DNA of 37,052 bases from a virus: positions 1-37,052 of IMG/VR virus record IMGVR_UViG_3300024520_000231; one strand, 5' to 3'. Below the pieces are notes generated by a model. It had not been told where the DNA came from and made no database searches. It worked only from the letters and a program-made list of their open reading frames with translations. A program made the position numbers and the translations under genes. The stretch's first letter is position 1; every line of letters begins with the position of its first letter. Below, piece after piece: positions 14,533-34,863 of this stretch.

Positions 14533-14931
14533 TTACTCATCCATTAATTCTATTAACTGATCATCTGATAATCCTTTTAATTGAGCCTTACTTACTAACT
14601 CATGTTTATGCTTAATTACCGAATCAGGTTCTTTCCACTTATAATTACACTTTAATCAAAAGATTGCCATAGTTGGATTTAATTTGTTTTTAAGTGCTCA
14701 ATCGAAAACTCTTCACTCTATTAAGCTATGAATTTTTTTGTAAGTGTCCGTAATTTGCCTATTGTTAGGGTATCTTTGTATCCACTCACTAACTCTCTGA
14801 TGTGTATAATCTCTTTCTTCTAGTAATTCTTTAATATAACATATATTTTTATCTGCCTTTACTTCTTTTAGCATGTTTAATAGCTCTGTTAAAGCAAACT
14901 CTTCAGTGTGTTTAGTTGGAGTTTTAGGCAT
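14533..14931 (-). CDS. terS: Terminase small subunit (gp3-like DNA-packaging protein)
   Basis: A 132-residue protein. The N-terminal half has a helix-turn-helix layout (ELLEERDYTHQRVSEWIQRY); the middle carries the family signature LNPTMAIFGLKCNYKWKEP, matching the widespread N-T-x-MAIF-x-LK-x-x-x-W pattern of phage DNA-packaging proteins. Reading through TGA joins the two parts. The small terminase recognises the packaging site and loads the large subunit, encoded about 1.3 kb downstream on the same strand. Confidence 0.8.
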
Positions 14932-23992: not shown

Positions 23993-24655
23993 TTATATTA
24001 AAACGTCCGATCTAACTACTTTTCTTTGTCTAGCAGTTAAAAATTGATAGTCATTCTCGTCATACTGTATATATGTTCATAAAAGCATATTAAGTATATC
24101 TTGGTAATCTTGTATTTTTTCTTGTGCTGTTTGTCTATTTCATCTAGCCGTATTCCATACTAAATAAGAAGCATATTTAATAATTAAAAGATCAAAATCA
24201 TCAGGAAAATCTATAGTATCACTATCACTACTTAATGCTGTTAATTTCTTTTTGTAATCAATATCTAAAGTTCATGCTGCATTAGGAGTAGGATCTAAAC
24301 CTATAACTGTTCATCTTATATAATATCGTATAGGAATTGAAGATGTAAATGTAGCAAACTTCCGCTTTAATGCTACTTTTGTAGTTTTGAATAAATCATC
24401 TCATTCATATCTAACTAACTCTATTCTAATAAAATCAGAAATATTACTCGTTAAAGAATATTCTTGAGTTCATGATACAGTTGTTATAGTCGTATTAGCA
24501 TCATGCTCTCTCCATTCAAAATTTCAATCAGCCTGTACTCTTGTATAAGCTCGATTAATAGCACTATTTAATACTGAATCACTCCATATTTTTCAATTAG
24601 GATCTATTTTTATTTCATTTCTTAGGTCAGTTCTCAAACTTAATAAAGTACTCAT
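23993..24655 (-). CDS. Head-tail adaptor-like protein (T7 gp11 / P22 gp4-like)
   Basis: A 220-residue protein. It begins with the helical pattern of podovirus adaptors: MSTLLSLRTDLRNEIKIDPN, then W(S)DSVLNSAINRAYTRV and FEWRE. A beta region follows (QEYSLTSNISDFIRIELV), a PIRYYIRG strand and a late LIIKYASYLVW helix. The same layout occurs in adaptor proteins that ring the portal and start the short tail. It is the first gene of the leftward late unit, 29 bases after the late -10 prom site. Several helix-capping glycines are TGA. Confidence 0.7.
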
Positions 24656-24683
24656 ATTAAAAATATTAGTTATATCTATTATC

Positions 24684-24710
24684 ATTATAATATATTAAAT
24701 TAGAATTCAA
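24684..24710 (-). promoter_or_regulatory. Leftward late promoter
   Basis: On the minus strand TTGAAT (24705-24710) and TATAAT (24684-24689) are 15 bp apart, just upstream of the adaptor gene. It lies in the divergent gap 24656-24813 opposite the rightward promoter at 24753. Confidence 0.6.
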
Positions 24711-24752: not shown

Positions 24753-24780
24753 TTGACAACATATTTAAATGTGATAAACT
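24753..24780 (+). promoter_or_regulatory. Rightward early promoter
   Basis: TTGACA (24753-24758), a 16-bp spacer and TAAACT (24775-24780), 33 bases before the PrsW-like gene. The preceding AAAAAAGTA also occurs in front of the promoter at 30640. Confidence 0.7.
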
Positions 24781-24813
24781 TATCCTAGTTAATTTATTCA
24801 TAACATTTTTCAT

Positions 24814-25308
24814 ATGTACACAATACTATTTACATTAATATTAACTGGAATGTTTTTAGAAATATCTATAGATTATACCAATTTAATAACTTGATTTGAG
24901 TGATCTAATTATTTATTATATACTATAATATTTGCAGGTATAGAAGAATTAATAAAAATTTGTTGAGCATATATGGGAAAATCAACAAAAGAATTTGATG
25001 AATTATGAATATGTATAATTATATCATGTCTTACATTTGCTACATATGAGAACTTTTTATATTATCAACAATCATGAATGGAATTATTATTAATAAGATT
25101 ATTTCCTTGTACATTAATACATATATCTACATATATATTTTATAATGAATTTTGAAAGAAATGATTTTTGATTGCATTAATAATACATATTATGTATAAT
25201 TATTTCGTAGTATTAGAATGAATGATGTGAACAACTATGATTATAAGTTCTATTATTATATTAAATCCTAATATTATAAATTTTATTTTTAATAATAATT
25301 ATCAATAG
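24814..25308 (+). CDS. PrsW-like intramembrane protease
   Basis: A 164-residue multi-pass membrane protein and the first gene of the rightward unit. It shows the ordered motifs of the PrsW family: EELIK (residues 44-48), FATYENF (75-81), a histidine in LIHISTY (103) and a final HIMYNYF (125-131), each within or beside hydrophobic helices (about five segments). The conserved acidic and histidine residues are the proposed catalytic or metal site. Bacterial PrsW cleaves anti-sigma factors at the membrane. In a phage it could cut a host membrane regulator or process phage membrane proteins; this is inference. Eight TGA glycines. No signal peptide beyond the first helix. Confidence 0.7.
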
Positions 25309-25343
25309 TGTGAAAAAAGTGTGAAAAAAGTGTGAAAGAAAAG
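25309..25343 (+). repeat. Direct repeats TGTGAAAAAAG (iteron-like)
   Basis: Copies at 25309-25319 and 25320-25330 are identical; a variant TGTGAAAGAAAAG follows at 25331-25343, then TGTTTTTA. They begin right after the PrsW-like stop, in a gap of 112 bases without a gene. Possible protein-binding iterons or a regulatory leader. Confidence 0.6.
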
Positions 25344-25420
25344 TGTTTTTAAACCGCCCAACTAAACACCATATATTACCGTCTTCCAGATGATGATCTA
25401 ATAATGAAACTAATATTATA

Positions 25421-25606
25421 ATGTTAAGAAGAAAAGAACACGCACATTTTCATAACGTATTTCAAAATATGACGTTTAATGAACAAATATCACATATATT
25501 ATCTATAAATAATCAATCCTTAATACCTGAACTTAAAGATTCTCTACAGGAAATACTTTGAAATTATGATATAGAAGATATATATAAAAAAGAATGTTTT
25601 AAATAA
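25421..25606 (+). CDS. Small protein, unknown
   Basis: A 61-residue protein (MLRRKEHAHFHNVFQNMTFN, ending KKECFK), helical, His/Asn-rich at the start and acidic toward the end. One glycine, encoded by TGA. It is in the early transcription unit with 23 bases to the next gene. Unknown function. Confidence 0.5.
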
Positions 25607-25629: not shown

Positions 25630-25902
25630 ATGTTAAATACAGATAAAGAAATAGAGACTCTTGACGCTATAGTAATGGAAGAAATTAATAATAGACTTCA
25701 TAAAATAAAACCTAAAGACATGGAATCATTTGAAGCCTTTAATATATTATCTTGTGAAGAATGATTTTTATATTATGCTATGCTTCAAATGGCTGATGAT
25801 AATAAAAATACCATCCTTACAGGACAAACACTAACAGAGATGTTAACTATAATTAGAAATGATCTTGAAAAAAAAGCTAAAAAATTTCTTGATTTAATTT
25901 AA
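25630..25902 (+). CDS. Small acidic helical protein, unknown
   Basis: A 90-residue protein (MLNTDKEIETLDAIVMEEIN, ending KKFLDLI), almost entirely helical, with a central aromatic patch (CEEGFLYYAML). One TGA and one GGA glycine. The leader TTTTATTTTTTAATTTATTTCACATG is of the standard phage type. It is followed by a structured non-coding stretch with a terminator at 26068. Function unknown. Confidence 0.55.
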
Positions 25903-26086: not shown

Positions 26087-26114
26087 TTGACTTTTGTTTT
26101 TTTTATGATAAACT
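26087..26114 (+). promoter_or_regulatory. Rightward promoter
   Basis: TTGACT (26087-26092), a 16-bp spacer and TAAACT (26109-26114), with the extension TGATAAACT shared with the promoter at 24753. Probable start near 26121. Confidence 0.65.
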
Positions 26115-26120
26115 ACTCTT

Positions 26121-26243
26121 GCAACATTAAATCACACTACATAGAGAATGTCTAATAAGCCTTGCGACAGCTTTTGTTGCAAACATTGATCAACTCGTAG
26201 TGTGGTTGATCCCTGTCGTAAGGCTTACTGGACATTTTATTTT
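26121..26243 (+). ncRNA. Highly structured leader or small RNA with possible pseudoknot
   Basis: Directly after a promoter: AATGTC (26147-26152) pairs with GACATT (26231-26236); 26156-26170 pairs with 26213-26227 over 15 continuous pairs (one G-U); GATCAAC (26188-26194) pairs with GTTGATC (26205-26211). The apical loop contains GTAGTGTG (26197-26204), fully complementary to CACACTAC upstream (26133-26140). A T-rich tail follows (TTTTATTTTTT), then the leader of the gene at 26258. This is either a free RNA or a terminator/antiterminator leader that controls the genes downstream. The overall design matches no family I know. Confidence 0.65.
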
Positions 26244-32592: not shown

Positions 32593-32660
32593 TGGAGTGG
32601 ATACTATATGTATATGCGTTTATAGTATTGATATTTATATTAATATCGATATGAAGTTAA
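32592..32660 (+). CDS. Putative single-pass membrane micropeptide
   Basis: A 22-residue frame (MEWILYVYAFIVLIFILISI) that is one hydrophobic helix, with a TGA glycine near the end. The start overlaps the previous stop by one base (TAATG), like several coupled pairs here. It might be a membrane-acting peptide, but the length makes chance occurrence possible. Confidence 0.4.
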
Positions 32661-32695
32661 AAACAAAAACAAAATTTATTATTAATTATTATCAT

Positions 32696-33364
32696 ATGAA
32701 AAATGTACCAATAACAATATTATCTGATGAAGAATGTCAGTTAGAGTTTGAAAAAAATAGAAGAAGAACCATTGAATTAAGATTAATGAAATTAGCACAA
32801 ACAAGTAATTCAAAGATATCTAAATTAAAAAAAGTTGTAGTAGGATTAGTTACCTTTTTAGTAGCTTTATGATTCTGGGGACAAGAAAGTGTAGAAGCTT
32901 CAGGATTAACTGATACACGTATAAAAAAATATTGTCATACTCATCCTTTATCTAAAGATGTAGTACATACAAATCATTTACTTGCTAATAGGTGTACAGC
33001 TATTTTACAAATGCAAGTAAGAATAGAAACTAAAAGATGTGCTGTATGAACATGACACAGATATAATAATTGTTTCTGATTTAGAGGTTGATATAAAAAA
33101 TCATGGAATAGAGACTATTGATTAATTAGAATAAGAAATTGATTCTTAGTGTTTAATTCTAAAAATAATAGTATACGTTTTGCAGTAGATAGATTTTATA
33201 GAATAGATAGATACAAGAAATTAAAAACTATAGTATATGGTTGATCATACTACCATTATAGAGACCAAAGATATTATAGAGCGGCTCCGTTTACACAAAC
33301 AGATCAAAGAACGTATTTAGAATATCTTAAAACTCATTATTGGAAATTTTATCATAAAAAATAA
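32696..33364 (+). CDS. Membrane-anchored extracytoplasmic protein, unknown
   Basis: A 222-residue protein. A cytoplasmic basic helix (residues 1 to 50) leads to one membrane segment (VVVGLVTFLVALGFWG), then an external domain with cysteines (KYCHTH, NRCTAIL, RCAVG, NNCFGFRGG) and many aromatic residues and arginines (RFAVDRFYRIDRYKKL). The NNCFGFRGG and later DRFYR pattern is not in a family I can name; a lysis or cell-surface role is plausible since four cysteines outside could form disulphides. I chose the start at 32696 because its leader fits; other ATGs upstream are in frame. Confidence 0.55.
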
Positions 33365-33691: not shown

Positions 33692-33997
33692 ATGTTTTCA
33701 GAAGAGCATGGTGACTTCATAGACCTACTATGAAAAAAGAAAGATCTAAAATGATTATTAATACAAAAAAAACTTATTGATTTTGTTACAACTAAAAAAA
33801 ATAGTGAACGATTAGAAAAGTTGAATATAAAAATTCAATTAACCATTAAAGAAGTCTCTAAAGATATTAATATATTAACCCAACTTCTTTGAAAAACTAT
33901 AACAGAAATTAATAATAATACGAATGATTCAACAGAATTACTTGAATTACAGTATATAAGGAATGAAATATTATTTATATTACATAGATCTTATTAA
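33692..33997 (+). CDS. Helical coiled-coil protein, unknown
   Basis: A 101-residue protein (MFSEEHGDFIDLLGKKKDLK), helical and charged throughout, likely coiled coil from about residue 20 to 70. Three of four glycines are TGA. It is the last gene of the rightward unit; its TAA (33995-33997) overlaps the stop of the convergent lysin gene (33994-33996). Function unknown. Confidence 0.55.
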
Positions 33998-34863
33998 TCA
34001 TCTAATAAACCAAGTCTATCTAATATTCACATAAACTGCCCTCTAGTTAATCAATCATTAGGCTTAAATGATCAATCTTGAAATCATTTAACTATTCATT
34101 TGTGTTTAGCCTTTTTAATAGCTTTAGCAAAAGGTTGACCTTCGTCTACGTCTTTAAATATCATATTGTGTTTTTGATTAAAAAATAAATATCAGTATTC
34201 AAAAAATACTCAATTCTGAATTAACTCCTTGAAGTACTTTAATGTATATATGTTAAACTTAACTAATCCAGTGTAGTTGTCTATTACTTGTATCGTAAAT
34301 AAATTATTAACACCTTGTGAAAGCTTTGTTGAAAACTTTTTTCTTATACGTACAGCATGTGAATAAGTTGTTCTTCAAAACTTTGTTCAACCTAGTACTC
34401 AATCATCATTTTTATCTTTATTGTAATTTGAATTACCGTTATATCAACACATAACACTATGTCATGAATTTAATATAGACATAAGATCTTCTCACAATAA
34501 TTTAATTCTATAAGTACTAAGTTTATCATTATTTATATCATTCCATTCTTTACGTACTAAATCAACTGCTTTATAAAAATACCACCCTTGATAAGGATCA
34601 GCTCACAAATCTATAGCTTTTCTCCATATTTCTTTAAGTTCGTTTCTTTTATAATTATATCTAGTTAAATCACTAATACATCATATAGCAGCCATTATAG
34701 TACAACAATAATTTCAAATAAGTTTTTGATTATATTCTATAGGTTCTAATTTATTACCATTACGTATTTCAAATTTAGTAGATGAATCAGTATTACCTCA
34801 AAATATATAATCTTTATAACTAGTTTTCTTAATCAATCATCAATATTTTATAGGGGCTTCCAT
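33994..34863 (-). CDS. Lysin: C39-like peptidase domain with C-terminal SLH domain
   Basis: A 289-residue protein. Residues about 40 to 200 have the layout of C39-like papain-fold peptidases: NYCCTIMAAIGC at 51-62 (candidate Cys 53 or 54), YSHAVRI with His 169, and VIDNYTG with Asp 195 or Asn 196. Residues 239 to 289 are one SLH (S-layer homology) domain: FAKAIKKAKHKGIVKGFQDG, then SFKPNDGLTRGQF. Four SLH glycines are TGA. SLH domains bind secondary cell-wall polymers, so this looks like an endolysin that cuts cross-bridges while anchored to the wall. It ends the late unit, after small membrane proteins, as expected. No signal peptide is seen, so holin-dependent release is likely. Confidence 0.75.

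Follow-up and report, generated by a model that had tools for sequence, protein, structure and literature searches.

A predicted, shortened PrsW-family intramembrane protease encoded by a small phage that reads TGA as glycine

Phages are not known to carry intramembrane proteases of their own. The window, that is, the whole 37,052-nucleotide stretch of IMG/VR record IMGVR_UViG_3300024520_000231 that was analysed, contains a locus that appears to encode one:

24814..25308, + strand: predicted PrsW-family intramembrane protease gene, ATG to TAG, 164 aa with TGA as glycine, matching PF13367

In the standard code, this frame is interrupted by nine in-frame TGA stops, and it is open only if TGA is a sense codon. 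Once TGA is read as sense, long frames fill the window, including those of the terminase, the portal, the major capsid protein and a DnaB helicase. As a test of the code, the terminase, portal, capsid and adaptor proteins of the window were aligned with relatives lacking in-frame TGA. Glycine was found opposite the window TGA at 296 of 490 aligned sites, and tryptophan was outside the eight commonest residues at these sites; as a control, the same alignments placed glycine at 203 of 295 window GGN sites and tryptophan at 113 of 148 TGG sites. L016, which served among these references, belongs to a recoded phage whose matched stretch merely happens to be free of TGA, with no effect on the reading. 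Given that the window TGA aligns with glycine, not tryptophan, in relatives without in-frame TGA, the phage is read here as using code 25, in which TGA encodes glycine. Reading TGA as tryptophan was rejected, as it lowers the PF13367 score of the protease to 25.7 bits and is contradicted by the relatives, and the standard-code reading was rejected because nine stops leave no protein. Code 25 is the code of Gracilibacteria and Absconditabacteria, which are ultra-small parasitic bacteria; therefore the host, judged from the code alone, is probably a member of one of these groups. The protease gene itself is adapted to code 25, since 9 of its 12 glycine codons are TGA. Its GC3 is 0.10, below that of the neighbouring genes.

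The clade to which the window belongs is a mixture of code-25 and standard-code (or TGA-avoiding) members. The conserved genes of L005, L026, L031, L034, L038 and L046 lack in-frame TGA, and other clade members are TGA-rich. L005, one of those whose conserved genes lack in-frame TGA, is the closest terminase relative of the window (62% identical).

With TGA as glycine, the 164-residue protein matches the Pfam profile PF13367 (PrsW-protease) at 30.5 bits (E 3.2e-7, profile positions 17–179 of 196), above the gathering score of 23.5 bits. Nine shuffled controls, permuted in 20-residue blocks with the hydropathy profile kept, gave no Pfam match at E ≤ 1. The first-pass annotation, made from the letters and open reading frames only, had called the protein PrsW-like and proposed a profile search that would count against this assignment if it gave no match; the search returned the match above, and the assignment held. 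GDT1 was rejected as an alternative family (16.7 bits, with a cut-off of 27), and a sequence search of solved structures produced a chance match only.

The motifs that the same annotation had placed in membrane helices are all present, in hydrophobic segments modelled as helices: EELIK at 44–48, FATYENF at 75–81, H103 and HIMYN at 125–129. According to published modelling, the predicted active site of PrsW draws EExxK from helix 3, a histidine from helix 5 and HxxxD from helix 6 (PMC4602095). In the window protein, EExxK corresponds to E44, E45 and K48 inside modelled helix 32–54, and FAxxEN to F75, A76, E79 and N80 in the next modelled helix; the conserved histidine, H103, lies in the following helix and H125xxxN129 in the one after, with N instead of the D of HxxxD, a substitution also seen in type II CAAX proteases. 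An alignment with four PrsW proteins of other phage contigs, described below, shows no variation at E44, E45, K48, F75, A76, E79, N80, Y83, R95, H103, G117, A121, H125 and Y128. The first-pass annotation had named loss of the motif residues in related phages as a second refuting outcome; as the search of about 40 related records described below yielded no homologue, conservation is judged here against these distant PrsW proteins, which retain the residues.

The protein is short, with 164 residues compared with 218 in Bacillus subtilis PrsW and 246–264 in the large-phage proteins. It has five to six hydrophobic segments, whereas most PrsW-family representatives have about eight membrane helices (PMC3482391). 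The eight-helix topology, a usual rather than required feature of the family, is thus absent here, and the predicted four-helix core is complete. Judged from the alignment, the protein is missing one or more N-terminal helices as well as the loop ahead of the last motif. The short N-terminus does not look like the product of a wrongly called start, because an in-frame TAA lies upstream at 24790–24792 and the promoter-like site described below ends at 24780. We read the protein as a shortened PrsW, with the four-helix catalytic core plus little else. On the NCBIfam PrsW equivalog model NF033739, it scores 16.1 bits against a cut-off of 225, while B. subtilis PrsW reaches 321 bits; for this reason, the window protein is classified as a broad PrsW-family member and not as an orthologue of the anti-sigma-W protease.

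An AlphaFold2 model built from a five-sequence alignment is all-helical and of modest-to-low confidence (mean pLDDT 63.5, pTM 0.56). In this low-confidence model, the motifs fall in four successive helices, 32–54, 63–87, 90–113 and 115–135. Foldseek searches of the model against the PDB and viral models gave no significant match. When 133 solved chains were aligned to the model with VIA-align, the first three places went to gamma-secretase APH-1 (Z 6.4 over 155 residues) and place 20 to the CAAX protease Rce1 (Z 5.0 over 142 residues), values of 5–6 being within the chance range for helical bundles. APH-1 and Rce1 are both members of the superfamily to which PrsW is assigned, an encouraging sign even though the scores are at chance level.

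Compared with known systems, the window protein thus resembles the PrsW family (PF13367, MEROPS M82, prototype B. subtilis PrsW) in its profile match and in the succession of EExxK, FAxxEN, H and HxxxN/D in consecutive predicted helices. It differs from B. subtilis PrsW in being shorter, lacking the N-terminal helix or helices and the loop before motif 4, scoring far under the equivalog cut-off, and being borne by a phage and decoded with TGA as glycine. It would share a four-helix core and the EE.../HxxxN geometry with the type II CAAX/CPBP proteases and APH-1 (PMC4602095), to which the model shows weak, chance-level fold similarity, but the spacing of EExxK and the additional histidine follow PrsW. 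A PrsW-family protease domain has also been reported in RNA viruses; these domains are likewise viral, but their hosts are presumed to be protists and the domain is linked to the replicase (PMC7508674).

The protease gene is the first plus-strand ORF past the minus-strand structural block. From the adaptor (24685) the structural genes extend to the left, and from 24814 the early genes extend to the right, with the following features around the boundary:

23993..24685, - strand: SU10-type adaptor, last structural gene (PF24175, 76.7 bits), divergent from the protease gene and marking the structural/early boundary
24753..24780, + strand: promoter-like site TTGACA-N16-TAAACT, 33 bases ahead of the protease ATG, a consensus match only
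25304..25345, + strand: three tandem copies of the 11-base unit AAAAGTGTGAA across the protease stop and the listed HNH start (repeat family D1)
25310..25606, + strand: small HNH endonuclease gene (PF01844, 22.2 bits with a cut-off of 21.4; phrog_655, homing endonuclease); its start is listed as GTG, and the true start may be further in
25630..25902, + strand: 90-aa ORF, last of the short leading unit, without a family match above cut-off
26087..26114, + strand: second promoter-like site, a near-copy of the first, preceding the replication genes (repeat family D2)

The pattern common to the two promoter-like sites, TTGACW-N12..14-TGATAAACT, has two matches in the window and none in 100 shuffles. 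In view of the second site, at 26087 and ahead of the replication genes, the protease gene is placed in a short leading unit, predicted to comprise it, the HNH gene and one small ORF, and the replication genes appear to have a candidate promoter of their own. The earlier description of the protease as leading the early operon therefore stands insofar as it is the first gene of the rightward block, but does not extend to the replication genes, which are preceded by the second, near-identical site. None of the neighbours of the protease gene looks like a dedicated partner or substrate, and the proteins scanned, a subset of the window ORFs, included no recognised integrase.

Just downstream of the second promoter-like site lies a putative, strongly structured RNA element (26145–26237, + strand) with a long stem of about 25 pairs and a z-score of -5.6, followed by T-rich stretches. 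The upstream CACACTAC could pair with GTAGTGTG in the inner hairpin. The element matches nothing in Rfam and resembles no sequence in the related loci.

Portal and terminase searches provided about 40 IMG/VR records of related phages, many of them fragments. Neither PF13367 nor the window protein found a match in any of these, an absence that is firm only for the longer records (38.6, 35.9, 33.2, 31.6 and 26.8 kb), and no membrane protein with the PrsW motif order was found in the seven longest related records or in G005 and G013. Nor was a counterpart of the protease gene identified beside the adaptor in seven related phages, as no multi-helix protein with the motif order was found there; the ORF adjoining the adaptor, in those cases where it has any similarity, looks like a small DNA-binding protein and is likely a small terminase. 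Because no copy was found in about 40 related records, the protease gene looks like an accessory gene. A direct search with the window protein found nothing close in IMG/VR and no credible match in phage or plasmid records, and a scan of genome contigs with the portal alignment gave no match.

PrsW genes do occur elsewhere in phages. A motif-pattern scan, most of whose matches were rejected as unrelated soluble proteins, identified one PrsW gene in each of four IMG/VR contigs; three of the contigs measure 149–482 kb and one (L094) 33.7 kb, and the encoded proteins score 60–82 bits each against PF13367:

L065:7528-8319, + strand: PrsW-family gene (motif scan, PF13367)
L079:4096-4851, - strand: PrsW-family gene (motif scan, PF13367)
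L082:1734-2474, - strand: PrsW-family gene (motif scan, PF13367)
L094:2513-3298, + strand: PrsW-family gene (motif scan, PF13367)

Using these four proteins in tblastn searches of 50,697 phage records, we found LR745206.1 and LR756502.1, genomes of 635 and 642 kb. The large-phage PrsW proteins (L065, L079, L082, L094, LR745206 and LR756502) are phage-encoded and carry the same motifs as the window protein; they differ in length (about 250–265 aa), in using the standard code and in residing mostly on contigs of 149–642 kb, and are only 19–24% identical to it. PrsW genes are rare in phages, the count found here being a lower bound since the scans demand particular residues. Full-text literature searches found no paper on PrsW in a DNA phage among the texts covered. 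What is new here is a further PrsW-family member in an unusual setting, a small code-25 phage.

The PrsW genes of the large and huge phages are apparently undescribed. By eye, the genes neighbouring PrsW in L079 and L094 are related to each other, and a gene beside PrsW in L079 resembles 2'-5' RNA ligases and the anti-CBASS protein Acb1, just under the cut-off.

Taken as a whole, the locus is best explained as an accessory gene of a code-25 phage, probably infecting Gracilibacteria or Absconditabacteria, that encodes a minimal PrsW-family intramembrane protease likely to act on a host substrate, a reading that we consider more likely than not. The protease would be made early in infection and inserted into the host membrane, where the paired glutamates and two histidines may cut a membrane protein inside its membrane segment or close to it. 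A host protein would be the most likely substrate, because none of the neighbouring phage genes resembles a dedicated partner. The activity could take the form of anti-sigma factor cleavage at site 1, the reaction of B. subtilis PrsW, but this is one option among several. It is unlikely, in our estimation, that the minimal PrsW of this phage of code-25 episymbiotic bacteria, as the first expressed gene, starts a regulated intramembrane proteolysis that releases or destroys a membrane-anchored host regulator or surface protein and so takes over the envelope response.

More specific proposals fare less well than this general reading. Cleavage of a host anti-sigma factor, turning on an envelope stress response or forestalling it, on the model of B. 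subtilis PrsW and RsiW, would agree with the function of the family prototype (PMC4602095) and with the early position of the gene; nevertheless, the window protein is not a PrsW equivalog and other roles, such as toxin release, have been proposed for family members (PMC3482391), which makes this an improbable account. We regard with similar doubt the idea that the protein, as one of the wider CPBP/PrsW group, resides in the membrane and confers immunity or superinfection exclusion, guarding the infected cell against other phages or toxins. The accessory nature of the gene, outside the conserved modules and adjoining an HNH gene, and the fact that CPBP proteins are also named Abi (PMC9263693) would suit such a role, but neither a partner gene nor any match points to immunity, and the motif set, with its histidine in the fifth helix and EExxK, is that of PrsW and not CPBP.

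A substrate encoded by the phage itself seems slightly less likely still. The candidate that could be freed from the membrane by the protease is the following:

32597..33364, + strand: predicted single-pass membrane protein

Its single strong hydrophobic segment precedes a basic extracytoplasmic region, but it lies 7 kb from the protease and has no Pfam or PHROGs family match; moreover, a plausible signal-peptidase site, identified by eye, ends the hydrophobic segment, so that no special protease would be needed. Equally doubtful is a catalytically dead remnant or scaffold that has kept its motifs by recent descent only, for while the protein is short, its GC3 is low and no copy was found in relatives, the frame is open over 164 codons with all motif residues intact and a promoter-like site upstream, and the predominance of TGA among its glycine codons implies a residence in the genome long enough for adaptation.

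If active, the favoured host-directed protease would represent a compact natural core enzyme of the PrsW family, useful for structure work, and would offer a handle on phage action at the membranes of ultra-small parasitic bacteria, on whose phage biology little is known to us. Such genes are missed completely by gene finding in the standard code, as the protease ORF is split by nine TGA codons.

Two further features of the window were observed. In the relatives L015, L052, L057 and L063, the adaptor is immediately preceded on the same strand by a small ORF that resembles DNA-binding proteins and is probably the small terminase (compared with 14533–14931, - strand, of the window); relative to these phages, the window is rearranged, its early genes being divergent at the adaptor boundary. 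At 33997–34863 (- strand), a 289-aa protein with a C-terminal S-layer homology domain (51 bits) and a relative in L016 is probably part of a lysis or attachment block.
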